From NCBI GenBank assembly GCA_040757335.1, contig JBFLXB010000026.1:1-51846 (forward strand): 51,846 bases of DNA, in the 5' to 3' direction. The position numbers were made by a program, and so were the translations under genes. Below the pieces are notes generated by a model that worked only from the letters and a program-made list of their open reading frames with translations, ran no database searches and was not told the origin of the DNA. Shown piece after piece: positions 10,903 to 25,665 of the stretch (its first letter is position 1; each line of letters begins with the position of its first letter). Origin of the DNA: Nitrospirota bacterium. Lineage in GTDB: Bacteria > Nitrospirota > Nitrospiria > 2-01-FULL-66-17.

Positions 10903-12147
10903 ATGAAGAGAGGGGTGGGGGCTGCATTGGTGGGACTGCTGACGCTGTCGTACGCCGCGACAGCAGCAGCGGAAGGACGTGTGCCGTTGGAGGAACTCCT
11001 GTTCGACAAAGGCATTTTGACGAAGGATGAGGCGGCATCGGTACAGAAGAAAAAGTTTTCGTCGTTGATCGACCGGATCACGTTCAACAACGATATTCGG
11101 CTTCGGTACGAGACGTTTTATATGACCACTGCCGACGATCGTTACCGCATGCGGTTCCGGTTGCGCCTTGGAGCCGACGTGAAGCTGGACACCATTACCG
11201 TCGGCATCCGCTTGGCGAGCGGGACCGGCGAGCAGGTGTCCACCAATCAGACTTTCGACAACCTGTCGAGCCAAAAGGCGATCTGGATCGACCGTGCGTA
11301 CATTCGGTGGCAGGGGGACAGCACGCGGTGGCTAAGCCTCACCGGAGGCCGCATGCCCAATCCCTTCTTTACGGTGTATTCCAGCGATGTGGTGTGGGAC
11401 GACGACTTCAACCCCGAGGGCGTGGCCGAAAACCTCAAATTCAAACTGGGGGGGGCGGAACTCTTCGTGAATCTCGCGCAGATCGTGTTGGATGAGGACA
11501 GCAGCGGCAAGCCGGACACGGATCAGTGGCTCTTCGGGCAACAGGTGGGCGCCACTGCGAGCCCGGTGCACGACGTGAAGACGACTCTGGCGGTCGCCTA
11601 CTACAACGCCGTCAACGTCCAGTACCCAAACGGTACGCTGAGCCAAAGCGTGGTTCAAAGCGGAAACAGCCGTTGCGACCTGGGACCTCCTGTGACGCCG
11701 ACGGGCTGTGTCGCGAATCAGTTGATCAACGACTATAACGTGGTGGACATCACGGCAATGGTCGGTTTCAAGGTTCTGTCGTTGCCGGTCTCGGTGATGG
11801 CCGACTATGTCACGAACACCGCGGATACGGTGGATTCGACCGGCGCCGACACAGAGGACAGCGGTTACCAAGCCGGTTTGATCCTGGGCAAAGCCAGCGC
11901 TCCCCAAACCTGGGAGGTGGCGTACTTCTATAAGCAGTTGGGGACCGATGCCACGCTGGCTGATATCTCTGACTCGGACTTTGGCACGGGCGGGACCGAT
12001 CGCAAGGGGAGCATCGTCTGGGCCGCGTACAACCCGAACAAAGCGCTCCAGGTCAAGGTGAAGTACTTCAAGACCAAGATCGAGGACGATCAGGCTGCGC
12101 CGAACGACATCAATCGGTTGCAGGCGGATCTGTCGGTCAAGTTCTAA
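10903..12147 (+). CDS. putative outer-membrane porin (Porin_5/OprP-like)
   Basis: This 414-residue protein has a signal peptide ending near TAAAEG, then a short helical segment ([16 protein letters not shown]) of a type often seen at the N-terminus of OprP/O-like and putative porins. The rest is an amphipathic barrel: repeated strands of alternating residues ([23 protein letters not shown]) and a C-terminal LQADLSVKF ending in Phe, the usual outer-membrane signal. AAGGAGG precedes the ATG. It lies between a Pho promoter and pstS, so phosphate or polyphosphate entry is the likely role. Anion selectivity cannot be read from sequence alone. Confidence 0.82.
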
Positions 12148-12185
12148 GGTATCGACAGACAATCATGTTGAAGAGGAGACGCGGG

Positions 12186-13202
12186 ATGGAAACACGACGG
12201 TATTGGGGACTGGGGTTTGTGGCCGCGCTGGTGGGGACGCTTTCCTTAGCATCGCCGCCATCGATCGACGCTGCAACCCTCATCAAAGTCGACGGGTCGA
12301 GCACCGTGTACCCGATCACCGAAGCGGTGGCCGAGGAGTTTCAGAAGAAGAACCCGAAGGTGAGGGTCACGGTCGGCATCTCTGGTACCGGCGGCGGGTT
12401 CAAGAAGTTCTGTGGGGGGGAGACCGATATTTCGGATGCGTCGCGCCCGATCAAGGTGTCGGAAGTCGAGTTGTGTCTCGATAACAAGATCGCCTACATC
12501 GAGCTACCGGTGGCCTACGATGGACTCGCGGTGTTGGTCAACCCGAAGAACGATTGGGTAACCAGCATGACTCCCAAAGAACTCAAAAAGCTGTGGGAGC
12601 CGGCAGCTCAAGGCAAGATCAAGCGCTGGAGCCAGATTCGAGCCGGGTGGCCGGACAAGGAGATCCACCTCTTCGGGCCCGGGGTAGACTCTGGAACGTA
12701 CGATTACTTCACGGAAGCCATCGTGGGCAAAGAGCATTCGAGCCGTGGCGACTTTACCGCGAGCGAAGACGACAATGTGTTGGTTCAGGGCATTGCCAAC
12801 GACCCCTTGGCCCTCGGATTTTTCGGGGTGGCCTACTACGAGCACAACAAGGACCGCCTTAAGCTCGTGGCCATCGACGACGAAAATCCCAAGAACGGCG
12901 ACGGTCCGATCCTCCCTGAATTCGAGAACGTGAAGAACGCGACGTACCAGCCGTTGTCGCGGCCGATCTTCATCTACGTCAACAAGAAGGCGCTGGATCG
13001 GGCCGAGATCAATGCATTCGTGAAGTTCTACCTGACAGAGGGGCGGCCGTTGGTCAAAGAAGTGGGGTACATTCCGTTGCCGGACGACGTTTACGATCTG
13101 GCGCTGAAGCGGACCGAGTCGCGGGTGGTCGGATCCGTGTTCGGCGGGAAGGGGTCGCAGGTCGGCGTGACGCTGCAATCGTTGTTGTCGGCTGAGAAGT
13201 AA
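12186..13202 (+). CDS. pstS: phosphate ABC transporter substrate-binding protein PstS
   Basis: This 338-residue periplasmic phosphate-binding protein has a signal peptide ([19 protein letters not shown]). The mature protein opens with [12 protein letters not shown], and later shows the phosphate-contact patterns [27 protein letters not shown] and VDSGTYDYF. The start at 12186 has GAGGAG upstream and begins close to the signal; an ATG 21 bases earlier has no site. It follows the porin by 38 bases and is followed by two hairpins, so the binding protein is separated transcriptionally from pstCAB. Confidence 0.96.
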
Positions 13203-13221
13203 CCTGCGGCTGATTGATCTG

Positions 13222-13255
13222 GAGCTGCGACGATCTCCAGGGATCGTCGCAGCTC
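13222..13255 (+). terminator. hairpin terminator after pstS
   Basis: A perfect 14-bp stem (GAGCTGCGACGATC and its complement) with a six-base loop begins 19 bases after the pstS stop. It is followed by a short T-containing stretch (GTTTG). It should end or thin transcription from the porin-pstS unit. Confidence 0.7.
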
Positions 13256-13264
13256 GTTTGCTCT

Positions 13265-13287
13265 GGGCCATCGGAATCCGATGGCCC
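13265..13287. other. second hairpin between pstS and pstC
   Basis: A 10-bp perfect stem (GGGCCATCGG / CCGATGGCCC) with a three-base loop stands directly after the pstS terminator. It is immediately upstream of the pstC Pho array. It may back up termination. Confidence 0.6.
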
Positions 13288-13299
13288 ATGAGTCAACTC

Positions 13300-13354
13300 G
13301 TAACTTCAAATTAACCTTCCAGTAACACACCGTTAACATTGGCGTGCGAAAAAT
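13300..13354 (+). promoter_or_regulatory. Pho-box array of pstCAB-phoU
   Basis: This is the cleanest array in the window: GTAAC (13300), TTAAC (13311), GTAAC (13322) and TTAAC (13333), all at 11 bp. The -10 is less clear than elsewhere. AAAAAT at 13349 is one base off the standard position, TAGCGA is at 13354 and TAATAT at 13362. It lies 85 bp before the GTG start of pstC. Confidence 0.75.
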
Positions 13355-13384
13355 AGCGACCTAATATCGGGCTCGAATACTGAC

Positions 13385-14278
13385 GTGGCTGCACCTATCC
13401 GTCACAAGTACAGCGAACAAGTGATTCACGGGGTGTTGTTCTTGTGCGGGGCGCTCTCGATCTTAACCACGCTGGGGATCGTGGCGGTCTTGCTGGTGGA
13501 GACCTTCGCGTTTTTCCGCGAGGTCTCGGTCATCGACTTCTTGACGGACACCCAATGGACTCCGCTCTTTGCCGACAAACACTTCGGCATCCTGCCGCTC
13601 ATCTCAGGGACCGTGCTCACTGCGGGGATCGCGATCGTGGTCGCGTTGCCGATTGGATTGGTGAGCGCGCTGTATCTGAGCGAATACGCGAGCGGGCGCC
13701 TGCGGAGCGTGATCAAGCCCGTATTGGAAATCCTGGCGGGAATTCCCACCGTGGTCTACGGCTACTTTGCCCTGCTTTTTATTACGCCGCTGTTGCAGCA
13801 GGTAATTCCCACGCTCTCGGGCTTCAACGCGCTCGCCCCGGGTATCGTCATCGGCGTGATGATCATTCCGATGGTCTCGTCCTTGTCCGAAGACGCGATG
13901 TTCGCCGTGCCGCAGAGCCTGCGGGAAGGGGCGTACGCGTTGGGCTCGTCCAAGCTCCAGGTGGCGCTGAAAGTCGTGGTGCCGGCTGCGTTGTCCGGGA
14001 TTGCCGCGTCAATCCTCCTGGGCATCTCCCGCGCCATCGGGGAGACCATGATCCTCGCCATCGCGGCGGGTCAGCAACCGCGCCTGACGCTGAATCCCTT
14101 GGTGCCGATCGAAACCATGACCGCGTACATCGTGCAGGTGAGCCTGGGCGACACGCCCACCGGCACGCTCGAATACCGGACGATCTTTGCGGTCGGGATG
14201 ATGCTGTTTCTCAGCACGTTGATGCTCAACATGATCAGCATGTGGCTTCGCCAGCGCTATCAGGAGCGTGAGGCATGA
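13385..14278 (+). CDS. pstC: phosphate ABC transporter permease PstC
   Basis: This 297-residue inner-membrane permease has about six transmembrane helices, the first at residues 18-40. The binding-protein-dependent permease motif is seen in [20 protein letters not shown]. The phosphate-permease pattern [17 protein letters not shown] is also present. It pairs with PstA to form the phosphate channel. The start is a GTG at 13385 without a clear ribosome site. It overlaps pstA by four bases (ATGA). Confidence 0.96.
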
Positions 14279-15156
14279 GGCTCGAGGCCGGGGCCCTCTC
14301 GCGGATGTTGCTGCGGCGTCAGGTCGCGGAGGTCGGGTTCCGCGCGGTGGCCGTCGCCGCCTTGCTGGTCGCGTTGGGGAGTCTGGTCGCCCTGCTCCTG
14401 GACGCATTCGTTGACGGCGCAGGACGCCTGTCCTGGCAGTTTCTCACCAGTTTTCCCTCGCGCCACCCGGAACAGGCCGGAATTCTTGCGGCGTTGGTGG
14501 GTTCGGTGGCGCTCATCCTGCTTACCGCGGTGTTTGCGCTGCCTATCGGCGTGGGCGCGGCGGTCTACTTGGAAGAGTACGAGGGCAGGACGTGGTGGGC
14601 GCGCGTGATCGAGGTCAACATCGCCAACCTGGCCGGGGTGCCGTCGATTGTGTACGGGCTGCTCGGCCTGGAACTCTTTGTCCGCGCGCTCCACCTCGAA
14701 CGCAGCCTGCTGGCCGGCGCGCTGACCATGGCCTTGCTGGTATTACCCATCATCATCATTGCCTCGCGTGAAGCCTTGCGAACCGTGCCGAACTCGATCC
14801 GCGAGGCCTCGTGCGCCTTGGGGGCCACCCAGTGGCAGACGATTTGGCACCAGGTGCTGCCCATGGCGTTCCCCGGCATCCTGACCGGCTCGATTCTCGC
14901 CTTCTCGCGCGCCATCGGCGAGGCCGCGCCCTTGATCACCATCGGCGCGCTCACGTACGTGGCGTTTCTGCCCGACGGCTTGTTGTCGCCGTTCACCGCG
15001 CTGCCGATCCAGATCTTCAACTGGGTATCGCGGCCCCAGCCCGGGTTTCACGTCAACGCCGCGGCCGCCATCATCGTGCTGTTGGTGGTGCTGCTCCTCC
15101 TGAACGCCGCGGCGGTGTACCTGCGGCATCGGTACCAACGCCGGGTGCAACTGTAG
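14275..15156 (+). CDS. pstA: phosphate ABC transporter permease PstA
   Basis: This 293-residue second permease of the Pst transporter contains [15 protein letters not shown] and the EAA-loop region [20 protein letters not shown], and has about six membrane helices. The reading starts with an ATG overlapping the pstC stop. It works with PstC, PstB and PstS for high-affinity phosphate import. It ends right at the base before pstB. Confidence 0.96.
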
Positions 15157-15921
15157 ATGATGGAGCCGACCGCGGCCTTCGAGGTCGAACGACTGGACGC
15201 CTGGTACGGGGCGAACCAAGCCCTCCGTCAGGTCTCGCTGACCATCGCCGAGCAGAAGATCACGGCCATTATCGGCCCGTCAGGGTGCGGCAAAAGCACG
15301 TTTATCAGGTGCTTGAACCGCATCAACGACCTGGTACCTGGGTTTCGCGTCAGCGGAACGCTCCGGTTCAAAGGCCAAGACATCTATACGCCGGGCGCTG
15401 ATCCGATCGGCATCCGCCTGCGGATCGGGATGGTGTTTCAAAAACCCAACCCGTTTCCGAAATCGATCTACGAGAACATCGCGTATGGGCCGCGGCTGTG
15501 CGGGATCACGGACCGAAACCGGTTGGACGCCCTGGTTGAAGAAAGTCTCAAGAAGGCCGCGTTGTGGGATGAAGTCAAGGACAAGCTCCGGCACATGGCG
15601 TGGGCCCTGTCGGGCGGCCAACAGCAGCGCCTGTGCATCGCCCGTGCGCTCGCGGTCGAACCCGAGGTGCTGCTGCTCGACGAACCGACCTCGGCCTTGG
15701 ATCCGATCGCGACCGCAAAAATCGAGGAGCTCTTGGTTGATTTGAAGAAAAGTTATACCATGGTGATCGTGACGCACAATATGCAGCAGGCCGCGCGTAT
15801 TTCGGACGCGACCGCGTTTTTCATGCTGGGGCAGCTCGTGGAGTTTGGCGCGACCTCGGGAATGTTCACCAATCCCAAAGAAAAGATGACCGAAGACTAC
15901 GTCACGGGACGGTTCGGCTGA
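15157..15921 (+). CDS. pstB: phosphate ABC transporter ATPase PstB
   Basis: This 254-residue ATPase has Walker [10 protein letters not shown] near residue 47, the signature LSGGQQQRL, and Walker [13 protein letters not shown] with a switch His in VTHNMQQA. The length matches PstB. It powers PstCA. Two ATG codons stand in tandem at 15157 and 15160 with no gap after pstA, so translation is coupled. It is followed one base later by phoU. Confidence 0.97.
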
Positions 15922-15922
15922 C

Positions 15923-16576
15923 ATGCGGCAATTCGACGAAGAACTCAATGCGCTGAAAGAGCGCATCCTGCGAATGGGCTCGTTGGTGGAGAGCCAGGTG
16001 GCCAATGCGATCAAGGCCCTGGTGGAGCGCAACACGGATTTGGCCCGCAACGTGATCGCCACCGACCATCAAGTCAACGCCTACGACGTGGAGATCGACG
16101 AGGAGTGCATCCGCCTGCTGGCGTTGCGCCAACCCACGGCCAGCGATCTGCGGTTCATCACCACGGCCATGAAGATTTCCACGGACCTCGAGCGCATGAG
16201 CGACCTGGCCGAAGACATCTGCGAGCGCGCGCTCGAATTGGCCGAGGAGCCGCAACTCAAGCCCTACATCGACATTCCGCGCATGGCCGAACACGCGCGC
16301 ATGATGGTCAAGGAAGCGCTCGACGCCTTCGTGAACCGCAACGCGGACCTCGCGCGCAAAGTCTGTCGGGAAGACGACTTCGTTGACGAACTGACCGGCC
16401 AAATCTTCCGTGAACTTCTGTCCTATATGATGGAAGACCCGCAAACGATTCGACGAGCGATCCGCATCACGTTCGTCGCGAAGTACATCGAACGCATCGC
16501 CGACCACGCCACCAACGTGGCGGAAATGGTCGTCTACCTGGTCGAAGGCAAGATCATCAGGCACACCGAGGTGTGA
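15923..16576 (+). CDS. phoU: phosphate signalling regulator PhoU
   Basis: This 217-residue all-helical protein has the two-repeat PhoU fold: a first half around MGSLVESQVANAIKAL and DLRFITTAMKISTDLERMSDLAEDI, and a second half with the equivalent AKYIERIADHATNVAEM. The E/DxxxD metal-site patterns are visible in both halves. PhoU links Pst activity to Pho kinase signalling. It starts one base after the pstB stop. No phoR-type kinase is encoded in the window. Confidence 0.96.
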   Translation: MRQFDEELNALKERILRMGSLVESQVANAIKALVERNTDLARNVIATDHQVNAYDVEIDEECIRLLALRQPTASDLRFITTAMKISTDLERMSDLAEDICERALELAEEPQLKPYIDIPRMAEHARMMVKEALDAFVNRNADLARKVCREDDFVDELTGQIFRELLSYMMEDPQTIRRAIRITFVAKYIERIADHATNVAEMVVYLVEGKIIRHTEV

Positions 16577-16693
16577 ACTCCCCTCGTGTCGGTGGCTGAC
16601 CCACGCCATTTCTGGGGCTTTGACTTTGTGCCAGAGATCGGCTCGTCCCAGTCTCTGAGTCATGGTTCGTCCCTCTGCGGTCGTGCCTTGTGG

Positions 16694-18079
16694 CTAGATC
16701 GCCTCCGCGATCGCCGTGTACAGCCCGCGATCCTTCCAGTATTGGGTATGCGCGACGAACGGGACGCGGTAGTCGCGTTCGATGTTCTGGGTCACGGGAT
16801 AGTGAAAGAGATACCCGCTCACGGGGTCGCGTGGGGTCCAGAAATTGAGCCAGCGCATCTGGGCCAACTCGGGCGTTGGGCCGTTGATTAGCGGGTAGAG
16901 TGAATCCGTGATCGCCTTGCGGACGGTCTCGTTTTCGGGAATCCGTTCGCGGAAGAAGTAGTAGATCTTTTCCAAGGGCGACCCGCACGTGACGAAGAGA
17001 TGGACTTTCTGGATCGGCACGTTGCGGGTCGTGCCGTCGGCTCGAACCACCTGGTTCTGCACCAGGATGCGATTGAGCGCGTCGTACGCGATCACGCTGC
17101 CCAAGGAATGGGCCACCACCACGACGCGGTCGTATGGGGGGATCGGCGATGACGGCGGCGGGCCTCCGGTTTCGCCGTGCTGCAGGATGCTGGTGAGCAT
17201 GTCCACCGCGCCATCGAGGATCTTCTTGCGCACCTCGTAGTACGACGAGAGCGCGTTGGACGACACGTACATGGCCACGTCTCCCACGTACTCCACCATC
17301 ACCCATCGAACCCATCGGTACACCGCGAATGCCACGGCGACCACCGTGGCAGGGACCAAAAGATCCCAGAACGTCTCGCCGTACCACGACGAGAGCTCGT
17401 GAAACGAGAGGGCGAGGAACAGAAAACTCGCGCTCAGAAACAGCCGCCACTGCCACCGCGTCAATGGAGGGAGCGTTCGGAGCTTCTGCTTCTGGGGCGA
17501 GGCGAACGAAACCAGCAGCATCCACGTCCAGATCGCCAACGCGAGGACATGGACAAAGCCCAGCCCGATTTGGATCATGGCTACGACCGACGCGGTCGTG
17601 CTGACGCGGTTGAGATCCTGCACAACATCCGCGGCGCGCTGGGCCATCCAGTGACCCGCCCAAAGATACGCCGCGCCCACGGCAACCAGCGCGACCAACG
17701 TGACGAAGAAAAAAACCAGACGCACGCTCTCTGATCGCAGACGCTTTTGCTCGCGCCGCGCCGCAGCAGCCAGGCGAAGGTTCTCGGTGACGTACAGGTA
17801 CGGAACCAGGGCTGAGCGGATCAGCCACCAGTAGACCGCGCGGAGCGTGATCTTCCCCTCGGTGTGTGGCGCCCAGTAGTACTCATAGACGTCCACCACG
17901 CCGCCGTCGCGTTTGGTCAGGCGAGCCGCGCTTTGTTGCCAGCCCTGTTGATCAATGAATTGCGGAGTCGGTTGGGCGCTCGCCAATGCTTCGGCCAAGC
18001 GCTGGGAGACGATGCCGAGGGTTTCGAAGGGCTGTTGCCGGCCCATGCCATGGACGACCCAGACCGCTGTTCGCCTCAT
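16694..18079 (-). CDS. membrane alpha/beta-hydrolase-like protein
   Basis: This 461-residue protein begins with WVVHGMGRQQPF, an oxyanion-hole-like start. It carries about four to five membrane helices in the middle (about residues 130-270), then a soluble hydrolase half with VVVVAHSLGSVIAYDALN. The last is a GxSxG-type nucleophile elbow (HSLGS) typical of lipases and esterases. The start at 18079 has GGAGGGGCG before it, and a longer frame lacks a site. A sigma-70-like promoter precedes it rather than a Pho array. It is convergent with phoU. The substrate is unknown; a lipid esterase is plausible given the membrane segments. Confidence 0.72.
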   Translation of the reverse strand: MRRTAVWVVHGMGRQQPFETLGIVSQRLAEALASAQPTPQFIDQQGWQQSAARLTKRDGGVVDVYEYYWAPHTEGKITLRAVYWWLIRSALVPYLYVTENLRLAAAARREQKRLRSESVRLVFFFVTLVALVAVGAAYLWAGHWMAQRAADVVQDLNRVSTTASVVAMIQIGLGFVHVLALAIWTWMLLVSFASPQKQKLRTLPPLTRWQWRLFLSASFLFLALSFHELSSWYGETFWDLLVPATVVAVAFAVYRWVRWVMVEYVGDVAMYVSSNALSSYYEVRKKILDGAVDMLTSILQHGETGGPPPSSPIPPYDRVVVVAHSLGSVIAYDALNRILVQNQVVRADGTTRNVPIQKVHLFVTCGSPLEKIYYFFRERIPENETVRKAITDSLYPLINGPTPELAQMRWLNFWTPRDPVSGYLFHYPVTQNIERDYRVPFVAHTQYWKDRGLYTAIAEAI

Positions 18080-18101
18080 CGCCCCTCCGTTACCGGCGTC
18101 T

Positions 18102-18130
18102 TCAATACCCCGTTTGGCTAGACATGTCAA
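18102..18130 (-). promoter_or_regulatory. sigma-70-type promoter of the hydrolase gene
   Basis: On the minus strand a consensus -35 TTGACA (18130-18125) is separated by 17 bp from TATTGA (18107-18102). It lies 23 bp upstream of the start codon at 18079. Confidence 0.6.
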
Positions 18131-18168
18131 TGCGTTGGAAGCGATGGGTGTTTCCCTCCCGGTTGGGT

Positions 18169-18222
18169 TTTACGGAGAATTAACCCAGCCATAACCTTGC
18201 CGCAATCTGGGTTTGATAGCGT
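18169..18222 (+). promoter_or_regulatory. Pho-box-type promoter of the ppx cluster
   Basis: TTTAC (18169), TTAAC (18180), ATAAC (18191) and GCAAT (18202) lie at 11-bp steps, with TAGCGT at 18217. The array is nearly the same as the one at 22623 before the phoB-like gene, including the -10 hexamer. A leader of about 250 bases separates it from the ppx start. Confidence 0.7.
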
Positions 18223-18482
18223 GGCAGCGTTTTTGACGGTTCCGTCGATATTTTCTATGTGCCTTCTTCGGATGTCCGCCTTGAACGTGCTCCGCCCGTG
18301 GTCCCGGGGCGATCACCCGCGTCGAACGCGCGGTCGCCACACTGCGGTGTAGCCGAGCCGCGCGTGACAGGCCGTATGGACACCCCCGAGATGTTTGTCG
18401 TAGAGTATGGGCGCGTAGGTATTCCAACCCCTGACCTTTCTATGTCCGGCCTTCACGACTGGTTCTTGTTAAACAGACCGTG
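18223..18482 (+). other. long leader region before ppx
   Basis: About 250 bases lie between the predicted transcription start and the ppx ATG. An open frame from GTG 18259 (or ATG 18375) runs through it and stops at 18483 with TGA overlapping the ppx ATG. It has no ribosome site and no recognisable product. I see no strong hairpin or known riboswitch. Confidence 0.35.
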
Positions 18483-19988
18483 ATGCGCACCCTTGCGGCC
18501 ATCGACGTCGGCGCCAATGCCATTCGGATGGCGGTGGCCACGCTCGACGACGCGGGTCGCCTCTCCATCATCGACCGCGTGCGGGAGCCGGTTCGGCTCG
18601 GCACCGACGTGTTCGCGTCCGGCTCCGTGTCCGAGGAGGCCATCGAGCGGGTGACCGACGCGTTCATCCGGCTCCGGGCGCTCGTGGATCGGCACGGGGC
18701 CACGCAGGTCAGGGCCGTGGGCACCAGCGCGCTCCGAGAGGCCGCCAACCAGGAACTGGTCCTGGATCGCGTGTTCCAGGCGTCGGGCATCGATGTCGAG
18801 GTGGTCAGTGCGGACGAAGAGGCGCGGCTGATCTTCCTGGGCGTGGCGTCGCGGGTCGACCTCACGGATCGCCGCGCCCTGATGATCGACATCGGCGGCG
18901 GGAGCGTGGAGATTTCGCTCGCCGCGGACGGGCGCCTGCTCTCCACCAGCAGCTTCAAGCTCGGCGCGGTCCGATTGCTGCAGGTGCTGGAGGAAAAGAA
19001 ATACGGCGAGCGGCAGTTCGGCCGCTTGGTGCACGGGTACGTGAGCGCGATCGAAAAGCTGCTGCGCCAGGAAATGGGGCAGCCGGTGGATCTGTGCGTG
19101 GGCACCGGCGGCAACATCGAGTCGTTGTGGGAGTTGTGCCGGTCCCTGTCCGGTGAAGACCGAGGCGGCGTGTTCAGCCAGGGAGAACTCGATACCGTCC
19201 TCAAGAAACTGCAGTCCTTGACCATCGCGGAGCGGATCCATGAGCTGGGCTTGCGTCCGGATCGCGCGGACGTCATTGTGCCGGCCGCGATCGTGCTCCA
19301 ACACGTGTTGGCCTTGGCCGGGACGGTCGACGTCATGGTCCCACAGGTGGGGCTCAGAGAAGGGCTCCTGGCGGACATGGCCTCGGCGTCGGACGGCAAG
19401 CGGCACGCGCCGCCGCGGGACCAGCTCATGAGCTGGGCGCTCCGGTTGGGGCGCAAGTACGCGTTCGACGAACCGCACGGCACCACGGTGGCCCGGCTGG
19501 CCGCCCAAATGTTCGACGCGACCAAGGCCGTCCATCACCTTGACGACGAGCACCGTTTGCTTCTAGAGCTGGCCGCGCTGCTGCACGACGTCGGCCATTT
19601 CATCAACGTGTCCGAGCACCACAAGCACACGTACTACCTGCTCACCGCGAACCCGATCTTGGGTCTGAGCGAGGCGCAGATGGCCGTGGTCGCCAACGTG
19701 GCGCGCTATCACCGCAAGTCGCCGCCCAAGCCGCATCATCGAGGCTACATGGCGTTGGGTCCCAAGGAGCGGGTCGCCACCTCGAAGCTGGCCGCGCTGC
19801 TGCGCGTGGCCGACGCGCTGGACACGCAACACAAGGGGAAGGTGACCGATCTGATGGTCGATTCCAACCGTCGACAACTCGTCATCCGCCTCAAAGGCGA
19901 CGGCGACCTGTTGCTGGAGAAGTGGAAGGTGATGAAGAAGGCGGGGATGTTCGAGGAAGTGTTCAGCCTCAAGTGCCTGGTGGAGTAG
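18483..19988 (+). CDS. ppx: exopolyphosphatase Ppx/GppA family with C-terminal HD domain
   Basis: This 501-residue protein has an N-terminal actin-like ATPase/phosphatase fold with DVGANAIRMAV (phosphate-1 motif), MIDIGGGSVEISL (phosphate-2 motif) and CVGTGGNIESL. From about residue 350 an HD-type domain follows, with ELAALLHDVGHFINVSEHHKHTYYL, as in the long Ppx/GppA enzymes. It should hydrolyse polyphosphate and/or pppGpp. An alternative GTG lies three bases upstream. It leads a cluster driven by a Pho-type promoter. Confidence 0.9.
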   Translation: MRTLAAIDVGANAIRMAVATLDDAGRLSIIDRVREPVRLGTDVFASGSVSEEAIERVTDAFIRLRALVDRHGATQVRAVGTSALREAANQELVLDRVFQASGIDVEVVSADEEARLIFLGVASRVDLTDRRALMIDIGGGSVEISLAADGRLLSTSSFKLGAVRLLQVLEEKKYGERQFGRLVHGYVSAIEKLLRQEMGQPVDLCVGTGGNIESLWELCRSLSGEDRGGVFSQGELDTVLKKLQSLTIAERIHELGLRPDRADVIVPAAIVLQHVLALAGTVDVMVPQVGLREGLLADMASASDGKRHAPPRDQLMSWALRLGRKYAFDEPHGTTVARLAAQMFDATKAVHHLDDEHRLLLELAALLHDVGHFINVSEHHKHTYYLLTANPILGLSEAQMAVVANVARYHRKSPPKPHHRGYMALGPKERVATSKLAALLRVADALDTQHKGKVTDLMVDSNRRQLVIRLKGDGDLLLEKWKVMKKAGMFEEVFSLKCLVE

Positions 19989-19992
19989 GTCC

Positions 19993-20682
19993 GTGACCTA
20001 CCGCGTAAACGACGACGAGATCACCGGAAAACTGATCGCGGTCGAAGGCCTCGACGGGTCCGGCAAGTCCACGCAGATCTATCTGCTCAAACGATGGCTC
20101 GATCTGGGCGGGTACAAGGTGGCGTTTACCGAGTGGAACTCGTCCTCGGTGGTCAAAGAAGCGACCAGCAAAGGCAAAAAGCGCCAGCTCCTAACCCCGA
20201 CCACGTTTTCGCTGATCCACAGCACGGATTTTGCGGACCGCTACGAGCGCCAGATCCTGCCCATGCTGCGCGCGGGGTTCCTGGTGTTGGCTGATCGGTA
20301 CATCTACACCGCGTTCGCGCGCGACGCGGTGCGAGGCTGCGACCGCACGTGGCTGCGCAGCCTCTACAGCTTTGCGCGGCCGCCGGATCTCACGTTCTTT
20401 TTCAACGTGCCGCTCGCCGTGGCGCTGCGACGCATTCTGGACGGCCGGCCGCAGTTGAAGTACCACGAAGCCGGCATGGATCTGGGCCTGTCGCCGGATC
20501 CGTACGAGAGTTTCAAACTGTTCCAAGGCCGCATCCACGACGAATACCTGCGCATGAGCCGGGAGTTCGGCTTCATCATGATCGAGGCCGGCCGCTCGCC
20601 CGAGGTCCAGCAGGACGAGGTGCGCCAGATCGTGCTCAAACACATCGACCTGCCGCGTTACAAATGGCGAGGACACCGATGA
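19993..20682 (+). CDS. thymidylate-kinase-like P-loop kinase, copy 1
   Basis: This 229-residue protein resembles dTMP kinases. It has Walker A EGLDGSGKST at about residue 20, the DRY motif LADRYIYTAFARD, and a C-terminal helical lid region. The start is a GTG, four bases after the ppx stop. It shares its layout with the next gene (DRYIYT, ARDxVRG), so the pair arose by duplication. In a polyphosphate cluster it may phosphorylate something other than dTMP, possibly using polyphosphate. That is inference, and an ordinary nucleotide kinase remains possible. Confidence 0.8.
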   Translation: MTYRVNDDEITGKLIAVEGLDGSGKSTQIYLLKRWLDLGGYKVAFTEWNSSSVVKEATSKGKKRQLLTPTTFSLIHSTDFADRYERQILPMLRAGFLVLADRYIYTAFARDAVRGCDRTWLRSLYSFARPPDLTFFFNVPLAVALRRILDGRPQLKYHEAGMDLGLSPDPYESFKLFQGRIHDEYLRMSREFGFIMIEAGRSPEVQQDEVRQIVLKHIDLPRYKWRGHR

Positions 20683-21401
20683 CCCGCAAGCGCTTCTACG
20701 GCCGCCGATTGCCGGGCGTGGATCCCCGCGGGCTGCGTGGCAAGTTGATCGTGATCGAGGGCGCGGACGGCTCGGGGCGGTCCACGCAAATCGGGCTCTT
20801 ACGCGATTGGCTGGAGCAGCGCGGGTACGCCACGGTGAACGTGGGGCTCAAGCGATCCATGCTGGTGGGCGAAGAGCTGGAGCGCGCCAAACAGGGCAAT
20901 GTCTTGAGCCCGCTCACGCTCAGCCTGTTTTACGCGACCGACTTCGTGGACCAGTTGGAGAACAAGATCATCCCCGGCCTGCGGTCGGGATTCGTGGTGC
21001 TGGCCGATCGCTACATCTACACGTTGATGGCGCGCGACATCGTGCGCGGCGCGGACCCGGCGTGGATCAAAGAGGTCTACAGCATCGCGTTGGTTCCGGA
21101 CGCGGTGTTCTATCTCTGGGTGCCGCCGCGCGTCCTGGCGCAGCGCAACCTGCTCAAGAACGCGGCGCTCGACTACTGGGAGTCCGGCATGGATATTCGC
21201 CGCAAGGGCGACATGTTCGAATGTTTCATCCGCTACCAGCTCCAGATCCAAAAGCACTTTCGCGCCATGCAGGCCACCTACGGGTTCCACACCATCAACG
21301 GGAATCGCTCTCCCCAGATGATCGCGCAAGTGCTCCGGACCAAGATCGATGCGGTGCTCCAACCCGCCGGGGCCGGCTCGGTTGAAGGCGTTCTACGATG
21401 A
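20679..21401 (+). CDS. thymidylate-kinase-like P-loop kinase, copy 2
   Basis: This 240-residue paralogue of the preceding gene has Walker A EGADGSGRST near residue 26 (Arg in place of the usual Lys in the P-loop) and DRYIYTLMARDIVRG. Its start overlaps the stop of copy 1 (ATGA). The GR substitution in the P-loop is unusual and might reduce or alter ATP binding, so a regulatory or heterodimer role is possible. It overlaps the next small gene by four bases. Confidence 0.8.
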   Translation: MTRKRFYGRRLPGVDPRGLRGKLIVIEGADGSGRSTQIGLLRDWLEQRGYATVNVGLKRSMLVGEELERAKQGNVLSPLTLSLFYATDFVDQLENKIIPGLRSGFVVLADRYIYTLMARDIVRGADPAWIKEVYSIALVPDAVFYLWVPPRVLAQRNLLKNAALDYWESGMDIRRKGDMFECFIRYQLQIQKHFRAMQATYGFHTINGNRSPQMIAQVLRTKIDAVLQPAGAGSVEGVLR

Positions 21402-22622: not shown

Positions 22623-22676
22623 TTTACAAAGAATTAACACAGCGATAACGTTCGGGAAATTCGGGTCTGGTAGCGT
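22623..22676 (+). promoter_or_regulatory. Pho-box-type promoter of the phoB-like gene
   Basis: TTTAC (22623), TTAAC (22634), ATAAC (22645) and GAAAT (22656) lie at 11 bp, with TAGCGT at 22671. It is nearly a copy of the ppx promoter at 18169, which points to autoregulation by the encoded response regulator. Confidence 0.75.
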
Positions 22677-22754: not shown

Positions 22755-23459
22755 GTGAAGAAATCGGTCCTCTTGGTCGAAGACGACCCGGATATCGTCC
22801 GGCTGGTGACGCACTACCTGGAAAAGGACGGTTTTCAAGTCCAGGCGGCACCGACCGGACCGCAAGGTCTGGGGGCGGTCCGCAAGCGCAGACCGGATGC
22901 GGTCATCCTGGATTTAATGTTGCCCGACATGGACGGGTACGAGGTGTGCAAACGGCTGCGGTCCGATCCGGCCACCGCCACGGTGCCGATCATGATGCTC
23001 ACGGCCAAGGGCGATGAGACCGCGCGAGTGGTGGGACTGGAGATCGGGGCGGACGATTATGTCACCAAACCATTCAGTCCCAAGGAAGTGGTGGCCCGGC
23101 TTCGCGCGCTGCTTCGCCGGTCGGCCCCGCCGCCGTCGCCTGCGGGCCAGCGCCTGGTTTATCGCGATCTGGTCCTCGACGTCCCGCGCCACGAAGTGCT
23201 GGCGGGGGATCGGTCCGTGTCGCTGACAGCCAAGGAATTCGCCTTGCTGCGGTACTTTTTGATGCACCCCGGCATCCTCGCGACCCGCGACGCGCTCCTC
23301 GAATCGGTCTGGGGCGAGACCACGTACGTGGGCAGTCGCACCGTGGACGTGCACATCCGACGACTCCGCGAAAAGATCCCGATGCTGGCGGCCGCGATCA
23401 TCACCGTCAAACCGTTCGGGTACAAGCTTCGCGACCCCAAGAGCGACGACGAGGACTGA
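22755..23459 (+). CDS. phoB: PhoB-like response regulator (OmpR family)
   Basis: This 234-residue OmpR-family regulator has a receiver domain with acidic residues E9, D10 and D11, phosphorylation site D53 (VILDLMLPD), and the Lys of TKPFSP. The C-terminal winged helix (about residues 135-230) includes LTAKEFALLRYFL and RTVDVHIRRLREKI. It should bind the 11-bp repeats and switch on phosphate genes. The start is a GTG at 22755, about 75 bases after its own -10. No sensor kinase is adjacent, so the cognate PhoR is elsewhere. Confidence 0.88.
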   Translation: MKKSVLLVEDDPDIVRLVTHYLEKDGFQVQAAPTGPQGLGAVRKRRPDAVILDLMLPDMDGYEVCKRLRSDPATATVPIMMLTAKGDETARVVGLEIGADDYVTKPFSPKEVVARLRALLRRSAPPPSPAGQRLVYRDLVLDVPRHEVLAGDRSVSLTAKEFALLRYFLMHPGILATRDALLESVWGETTYVGSRTVDVHIRRLREKIPMLAAAIITVKPFGYKLRDPKSDDED

Positions 23460-23533: not shown

Positions 23534-23950
23534 ATGAAGACCGTGCTGTTCGTGTGCGTTGAAAACTCGTGCCGAAGTCAGATGGCCGAGGCGTTCGCCA
23601 GCATGCTCGGGCCGGGCGTCATCCAGGCCTACAGCAGCGGGTCGCGCCCATCGGGCAAGGTGAACGAGAAAGCGATCGCGTCGATGAAGGAAGTGGGCTA
23701 CGACCTGTCGAATCACCGGTCGAAATCACTGGCCGACGTTCCCACCATCGAATACGACGCGGTGGTGACCATGGGCTGCGGGGACGAGTGTCAGGCGATA
23801 CCAGCGAAACGAAGGCTGGAGTGGGATATTCCGGACCCCAAGCAGTTGGATGCGAAGCGGTTCGGCGAAGTGAGAGACCTGATCAAACACAAGGTTCAGC
23901 GCCTGATCGACGACATCCGCGGCCCCTCCCGGAAATTTACGCTACCGTAA
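23534..23950 (+). CDS. arsC: ArsC-type arsenate reductase / low-molecular-weight phosphatase fold
   Basis: This 138-residue protein has the P-loop CVENSCRSQMAE (Cys8 to Arg14, CX5R) and a later MGCGDEC pair of Cys, the three-Cys layout of thioredoxin-linked arsenate reductases, plus the general acid Asp in WDIPDPK. It would reduce arsenate to arsenite. Arsenate enters through phosphate transporters, so a place beside the phosphate genes makes sense. It lies 74 bases after the phoB-like gene, with no Pho array of its own, so it may be read through from it. Confidence 0.85.
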   Translation: MKTVLFVCVENSCRSQMAEAFASMLGPGVIQAYSSGSRPSGKVNEKAIASMKEVGYDLSNHRSKSLADVPTIEYDAVVTMGCGDECQAIPAKRRLEWDIPDPKQLDAKRFGEVRDLIKHKVQRLIDDIRGPSRKFTLP

Positions 23951-23989
23951 ACCACGCTTGATCCGCTGGTAACGCGGCCCCGGTACGCT
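23936..23989 (+). promoter_or_regulatory. Pho-box-type promoter of the broken glycosyltransferase gene
   Basis: TTTAC (23936), GTAAA (23947), TTGAT (23958) and GTAAC (23969) are spaced at 11 bp, and TACGCT starts at 23984. It overlaps the end of the arsC-like gene. The start codon downstream is at 24030. Confidence 0.68.
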
Positions 23990-24029: not shown

Positions 24030-24320
24030 GTGAAGATCCTCTACGGAGTTCAGGCCACGGGCAACGGCCACCTCACGCGTTCGCGCGAGGTGGTGGCTGC
24101 GCTGCGCCGGGCCGGGCACCACGTGGACGTCTTATTGAGCGGCCGCCCGCCCGAGAAGTTGTGGGGCGTGGAGGACCTGCAGCCGTTCCAGGTGAGACAG
24201 GGCCTCACGTTCGCGGTGGACCGCGGGCGTATTGATCCGTGGGCCACGGCTCGCGGTCTGGATCCAATCGCCTTCTATCGGGACATCCGGGCCTTTGACG
24301 CGAGCGGAGTGGACGTCGAA
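24030..24320 (+). pseudogene. truncated glycosyltransferase (MJ1255/TIGR00661-like), N-terminal part only
   Basis: The reading MKILYGVQATGNGHLTR through FYRDIRAFDASG matches the N-terminus of the MJ1255-like glycosyltransferases, which are normally well over 300 residues. Here the match stops after about 95 residues and the frame ends at 24335. From about 24313-24320 on, the sequence is the reverse strand of a PAP2 gene. The start has a good upstream Pho-type promoter. The intact enzyme would use a nucleotide sugar on a lipid. Whether the break is a deletion or an assembly join cannot be decided here. Confidence 0.75.
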
Positions 24321-24725
24321 CGCGATCACCAATAACAGCGGCATCACCGACGGCCAGACTGCGGCTTCGAGCACGGTGGCGGCGGCGAACGCGTTCATCG
24401 AGTGCCCGGACGGGAACGAGTAGTAGTCACGCGCCGAGGCCGGCGCGTGCAGATCACGATGCGCGTGGCAGGGCCGCTCCCGCCCGGTGGTTCGTTTCAT
24501 CACCACAAATACCAGATTCGCGGCGCCACACGCGACCGCGCCCGCGACGAACACGCGGAGCGATCTCGCCTGCAGCGCGGCCAGCGCGACCGCTCCCCAC
24601 AGCCACCCATCGCCCACGCGGGTGAACCCGATCATGACCGCGTCCACCCACGCTGCGTGCGTCTCGGGCACGAGGCGCCGGATCAGCGAGGCTTCCCAGT
24701 GGTTCAAGCGGGAGATCAGTTCCAT
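24314..24725 (-). pseudogene. truncated PAP2-family phosphatase, C-terminal motif missing
   Basis: From the start at 24725 the protein has the PAP2 motifs MKRTTGRERP (KX6RP type) and FPSGHSMNAFAAA (PSGH), with membrane helices around VFVAGAVACGAANLVFVVM and PLLLVIAF. The expected third motif (SRX5HX3D), which holds the catalytic His, is absent. The sequence leaves the family at about 24313-24320, where it meets the glycosyltransferase on the other strand, and the open frame only continues as its reverse complement. A Pho-type promoter lies at 24744-24797. The intact enzyme would dephosphorylate phosphatidic acid or a similar lipid phosphate. Confidence 0.78.
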
Positions 24726-24743: not shown

Positions 24744-24797
24744 ACCATACCCGATGGGTGTAAACGCTCGATCAACCGGACGTTACGCCTGGGTCAA
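24744..24797 (-). promoter_or_regulatory. Pho-box-type promoter of the PAP2 gene
   Basis: On the minus strand TTGAC (24797), GTAAC (24786), TTGAT (24775) and TTTAC (24764) lie at exactly 11 bp. TATGGT begins at 24749, 15 bases after the start of the fourth repeat. It is divergent from the next array, with 39 bp between them. Confidence 0.7.
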
Positions 24798-24836: not shown

Positions 24837-24890
24837 TTAACCCGTTTGTAACCGCTCTTTGAATGACGCGCAATGCACGTCCGCTACGAT
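24837..24890 (+). promoter_or_regulatory. Pho-box-type promoter of the second response regulator
   Basis: TTAAC (24837), GTAAC (24848), TTGAA (24859) and GCAAT (24870) lie at 11 bp, with TACGAT starting at 24885. The predicted transcript begins near 24897, close to the GTG at 24911. Confidence 0.7.
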
Positions 24891-24910: not shown

Positions 24911-25665
24911 GTGGGTGACGTGGAGCCGGGCGCGGAAGGAGCCATTGACAGCCAGACCATCCTGCTGATCGAGGACGATCAGGACATCGCCCGATTGATC
25001 GAGCGCGAGCTGGTGGGCCATCACTACCGCGTGGAGCGATTCGAGAACGCGCAGGCGAGCCTTCGCAGAGCGCGCCGCCCTGACGTCGACCTGATCGTGC
25101 TCGACCTGCTGCTGCCCGACATGCACGGGTTCGAGGTGTGCCAGCGGCTTCGCAGCGAAGAGGCTACGGCCGCGGTGCCGATCGTGGTGGTGACGGCTCT
25201 GGCGGACGAAGCGCACCGCGTGCGCGGCTTCGAGGTGGGCGCCGACGACTATGTGACCAAGCCGTTTTCCGTGCGCGAGCTGGTCACCCGGGTGCGCGCC
25301 TTGCTGCGACGCGCGGCCATGGGCCGACGGCCGGCCCAAGAAACGCGGGGGGACCTGTGCATCGACCGTCGGCGCCACGAGGTCACCATCCGCGGCGAGG
25401 CTATCACCCTGACGCCCACGGAATTCACCCTGCTCGACTTCTTCGCCAAACACCCTGATCGGTCTTCAGCCGGGACGAGCTGCTCACCCATCTATGGGGC
25501 GAAGAATCCGTCATCTTGGAGCACAACCTCGACGTCCACATCTGTTCGCTCCGCCGCAAAATCGAGCGCGACCCCAAACATCCGACGTTGCTGGTGACCA
25601 TTCGCAACGTGGGCTTCAAGCTGGTGGACGGGGGCGGAACCGCGCTGGTGTCGCCGGTCAGCTAA
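24911..25665 (+). pseudogene. second PhoB-like response regulator, frameshifted in the DNA-binding domain
   Basis: The receiver domain is complete (IEDDQD, phosphorylation Asp at about residue 65 in VLDLLLPDMHG, TKPFSV), and the winged helix begins with LTPTEFTLLDFFAKHPD. There the frame breaks: the open reading ends at 25597 with a nonsense tail. In the +1 frame, from about 25463 to the TAA at 25665, the expected end continues (FSRDELLTHLWGEE, LDVHICSLRRKIERDP, VGFKLVDGG). One base near 25461-25464 therefore appears to be missing, by mutation or sequencing error. The start is uncertain: GTG 24911 has no site, while an in-frame ATT at 24944 follows GGAAGGAG. Confidence 0.82.

Follow-up and report, generated by a model that had tools for sequence, protein, structure and literature searches.

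The window analyzed, a stretch of 51,846 nt, belongs to a Nitrospirota draft assembly of 3.56 Mb in 61 contigs, estimated to be 99% complete and 0.5% contaminated. It hosts a phosphate island including a porin gene, pstSCAB, phoU, ppx, two thymidylate-kinase-like genes, a SixA-type phosphatase gene and two PhoB-like regulators. The thymidylate-kinase-like genes are found side by side immediately 3' of ppx (19993-21401). Long ORFs in the ~1.5 kb interval separating phoU from ppx (16577-18130) are found only on the minus strand, and have no Pfam match. Within the island, a truncated glycosyltransferase (GT) gene and a truncated PAP2-family phosphatase gene face one another, flanked by a low-molecular-weight-phosphatase-like gene and by the PhoB-like regulator RR2 (Table 1).

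Table 1. Features of the Pho island and of the GT/PAP2 junction (window coordinates)
Feature	Position	Strand	Evidence or remarks
Surrounding Pho cluster (porin, pstS, pstC, pstA, pstB, phoU, ppx)	10903..19988	+	
Intact PhoB-like response regulator RR1	22755..23459	+	own Pho promoter at 22623
Low-molecular-weight-phosphatase-like gene	23534-23950	+	left neighbour of the GT fragment
GT Pho promoter	23936..23989	+	TTTAC/GTAAA/TTGAT/GTAAC at 11-nt period, -10 TACGCT 10 nt later; rank 7
N-terminal 96 residues of an MJ1255/VC2487-family glycosyltransferase	24030..24317	+	TIGR00661/PF13528 profiles, homolog alignment
PAP2-frame read-through into antisense GT sequence, no homology	24132..24320	-	
GT-frame read-through tail, non-homologous (ERDHQ, stop)	24318..24335	+	
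N-terminal ~135 residues of a PAP2-family phosphatase	24321..24725	-	PF01569 profile, homolog alignment
PAP2 Pho promoter	24744..24797	-	TTGAC/GTAAC/TTGAT/TTTAC, -10 TATGGT 10 nt later; rank 6
RR2 Pho promoter	24837..24890	+	TTAAC/GTAAC/TTGAA..., TACGAT
PhoB-like response regulator RR2, frameshifted	24911..25597	+	
Window-wide Pho promoter sites	13300, 18169, 22623, 10191(-), 10242, 10574, 24837, 24797(-), 23936		

The GT ORF (24030-24335, plus strand) matches PF13528 with 43.3 bits (cut-off 25) over positions 1-69 of the 322 in the profile, and TIGR00661, the profile of the MJ1255/VC2487 family, over positions 1-96 of 321 (E 2.4e-11), a match to the N-terminal domain of these proteins. The TIGR00661 score is 43.5 bits against a full-length cut-off of 195.9, and by this measure the remnant is a fragment and no working member of the family. 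It corresponds to the N-terminal half of a GT-B-type enzyme, and the C-terminal donor-binding half is absent. Aligned with full-length homologs, mostly 337-379 aa long, GT matches over residues 1-96 and diverges after ...ASGVDV (24317). Intact MJ1255/VC2487 members are ~40-55% identical to these residues and share the TGNGH motif; relative to them, ~70% of the protein is gone. GT was sought in 270 genomes of the class and in 396 sampled from the phylum, and only the window copy was found, with no intact near relative. Two distant matches were retrieved from a plasmid collection, and none from a phage collection.

The PAP2 ORF (24725-24132, minus strand) covers just positions 7-76 of the 130 in PF01569. 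The motifs KxxxxxxRP (as KRTTGRERP) and PSGH are both present; homology stops at ...LLLVIA (24321, at most 24318), immediately ahead of the third catalytic motif, SR-x5-H-x3-D, which is missing together with the last C-terminal helices. The window PAP2 branches between the PAP2s found in operon with GT homologs, described below, and the other, ordinary PAP2s of the class, which leaves common descent with the operon partner unproven. A search of genome contigs with PAP2 by itself confirmed a relative in none.

The GT and PAP2 homologies abut, being separated by 0-3 nt. A first-pass annotation of the DNA had described the direct fusion of the N-terminal parts of the two genes, with a breakpoint at about 24313-24320: partial profile matches end at the junction on both sides, and alignments place it at 24317/24318-24321, in agreement with both statements. 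Only weak and short direct and inverted repeats were detected at the junction, and the two halves have there a few nt in common at most. The missing ends were searched for in the whole assembly. PF13528 retrieved only the window fragment plus one weak match, a candidate GT C-terminus on contig C11 (E 0.19) that was discarded, as full-length GTs gave it no support. With PF01569, a second PAP2 gene that appears complete was retrieved besides the window fragment; it lies next to purD on contig C12, and PAP2 and purD are neighbours in the same-family genome G001 too. The missing PAP2 end was not found in the other contigs.

Both broken genes have retained their control regions. Pho promoters in the window are made of three to four half-sites of the (T/G)TAAC type at 11-nt period, followed 10 nt on by TAnnnT. 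Direct repeats related to TTAAC with this period number 25 in the window versus 7.1 expected, and none of 100 shuffles reached 25. The organization recalls PhoB Pho boxes, in which direct repeats likewise recur every 11 nt and a -10 element comes after them; half-sites differ, being TGTCA in PhoB boxes and (T/G)TAAC or TTGAY in the window. A scoring scheme was trained on the half-sites of just four promoters, those of pstC, ppx, RR1 and the leftmost gene, holding out those of GT and PAP2, and demanded TAnnnT 10 nt past four half-sites. Among ~103,000 window positions, the PAP2 promoter (25.9) ranked sixth and the GT promoter (24.9) seventh, versus a peak of 13.9 in 20 Markov shuffles; these figures are not fully independent, because visual inspection of some of these promoters had suggested the -10 rule. 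Half-sites alone also ranked the two promoters high, at 12th and 19th among all positions where two half-sites were scored. The remaining top-ranked sites are upstream of phosphate-cluster genes (pst, ppx, phoB, porin). Both promoters thus pair a Pho box with a -10 element at fixed phase, as Pho regulon members do, and the earlier claim that each broken gene keeps an intact Pho promoter held in the held-out scoring.

The likely explanation of these data is that a real deletion inactivated a Pho-controlled PAP2 phosphatase and glycosyltransferase pair, leaving their Pho promoters in place. In the ancestor the two genes would have been convergent inside the Pho island, driven by separate Pho promoters, and the deletion would have fused codon 96 of GT to codon 135 of PAP2. 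Homolog lengths indicate that at least ~0.9 kb was removed, provided that the gene order was convergent. The convergent order itself is only inferred, because no intact convergent relative was found. Both remnants are presumably inactive, and the event would be recent, because the surviving codons and promoters are clean. The locus looks like the recent loss of a phosphate-saving pathway.

Less probably, the genes are intact in the organism, and the halves were joined by a chimeric read or by local misassembly. The genome is a 61-contig draft, and one base is missing near 25453-25459 in RR2, a lesion overlooked in the first-pass annotation that leaves most of the DNA-binding domain out of frame; at ~1.1-1.2 kb from the junction, it could denote poor local sequence. 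Against an artefact, the missing GT and PAP2 parts were not found in any contig, the Pho-cluster genes around the junction have reading frames open across their domains, and the overlap at the junction falls short of what joining by k-mer or by overlap requires. Assembly collapse, one of the two readings contemplated in the first-pass annotation, is in particular disfavoured, because it needs a common stretch of k-mer length that the junction does not have.

The RR2 frameshift, a separate lesion in the adjacent gene, suggests relaxed selection. It has two readings: the entire Pho side-branch may be decaying, or the sequence may be of poor quality locally. In G001 a related Pho cluster includes a low-molecular-weight phosphatase, an intact RR2 ortholog (L137:10422-11225) preceded by the same promoter layout as in the window, a porin and pst genes. 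Neither GT nor PAP2 was found between the corresponding neighbours in this cluster. The absence of the pair from the G001 interval, and of GT from the class and phylum genomes searched, points to lineage-specific acquisition or to loss elsewhere. Unlike in G001, where a PhoR kinase (L137:6158-7720) follows, RR1 of the window has no PhoR kinase 3' of it, and the G001 kinase has no match within the window.

Loci hosting the 80 closest GT relatives were scanned for PAP2 genes. In 57 of them, as well as in Aeromonas caviae (L018), PAP2 is directly upstream of GT and codirectional with it, and the two genes usually abut or overlap. Every PAP2 gene found beside GT homologs in the scanned loci is in tandem, and none is convergent. 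The search of related genomes for intact genes, envisaged in the first-pass annotation, yielded intact pairs but nowhere a convergent one; of the proposed deletion of a convergent region, deletion stands as the better of the two readings then offered, and the convergent layout is plausible but has no counterpart in the relatives found.

The prevalence of tandem pairs brings in the view that the locus is the remnant of a rearranged PAP2-GT operon, turned tail-to-tail by inversion plus loss. This is improbable, as each gene has a complete Pho promoter in convergent orientation, and the sequence upstream of GT shows no trace of a PAP2 C-terminus; on the latter ground inversion of the tandem operon was rejected. 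That the short ORFs are functional mini-proteins, or full-length genes of another type as the first-pass annotation alternatively suggested, would accord with open frames and kept promoters, but is hardly credible since both end mid-domain, PAP2 lacks the third catalytic motif and GT the C-terminal domain, and 78 of the 80 GT homologs recovered are longer than 330 aa.

The tandem operons are themselves associated with phosphate control. An E. coli-type Pho box scoring >10 bits is found upstream of 50 of the 58 operons (from the loci L018 and L022-L101), nearly all gammaproteobacterial; the 50 are not independent events, because the operons share ancestry. The weight matrix used was written to follow the general PhoB consensus. 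Controls on shuffled sequences, on the opposite strand and on the starts of other genes in these loci gave 5-6%, and changing the spacing to 9, 10, 12 or 13 nt left just 4-9 of the 58 operons, denoting specificity for 11 nt. No Pho box was recognisable upstream of the non-gammaproteobacterial operons (L022, L023, L025, L027), and no clear one upstream of the closest GT relatives, which are found in Desulfobacterota and Chlorobi.

The pairing of PAP2 and GT as phosphate-starvation genes gains support because many Gammaproteobacteria have these gene types in one operon with a Pho box ahead of it. The role in lipid remodelling originally suggested for the intact pair is thus strengthened as to its phosphate context, by these operons and by the window promoters; for the lipid chemistry, we infer a phospholipid-to-glycolipid conversion from the chemistry of the two families and from the fact that bacteria are established to use glycolipids when phosphate is limiting (marine heterotrophs, PMC4796936; PMC5193443; PMC8528852). 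PAP2 would dephosphorylate a lipid phosphate, yielding a lipid acceptor such as diacylglycerol, to which the glycosyltransferase would add a sugar; the glycolipid would replace phospholipid under phosphate starvation. The intact pair probably made phosphorus-free glycolipids. It may otherwise have acted in a lipid-linked (undecaprenyl) pathway, since in NCBIfam the two PAP2s tested come closest to an undecaprenyl-diphosphatase, with a score well under the cut-off; for the window PAP2, the similarity to the undecaprenyl-diphosphatase SepP (NF047884) is weak, and no equivalog cut-off is reached.

Lipid remodelling under phosphate starvation by Agt-type glycosyltransferases and related systems, described in Desulfovibrio alaskensis (Dde_3613, PMC5193443), marine heterotrophs (PMC4796936) and P. 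aeruginosa (PMC8528852), has in common with the window pair Pho-linked regulation and plausibly the same chemical logic, phosphate removal followed by glycosylation. Enzyme families differ, being PAP2 and an MJ1255/VC2487 GT in the window pair. It is tentatively proposed, with confidence just short of even, that MJ1255/VC2487 GT and PAP2 constitute a module under Pho control, widespread and so far undescribed, that makes phosphorus-free (glyco)lipids in parallel to PlcP/Agt. In many Gammaproteobacteria the module would be the tandem operon preceded by a Pho box, and the window, from an unrelated lineage, would host a version of it that is divergent, differently arranged and broken. The loss of two genes by deletion is in itself ordinary, and interest lies rather in the conserved Pho-linked operon: operon conservation and Pho boxes link an uncharacterised GT family to phosphate starvation in many Gammaproteobacteria, and provide the MJ1255/VC2487 family with a testable function. 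No paper tying VC2487 or MJ1255 to phosphate was found in the literature. In V. cholerae, a ChiS ChIP peak has been located upstream of VC2487 (PMC11856585).
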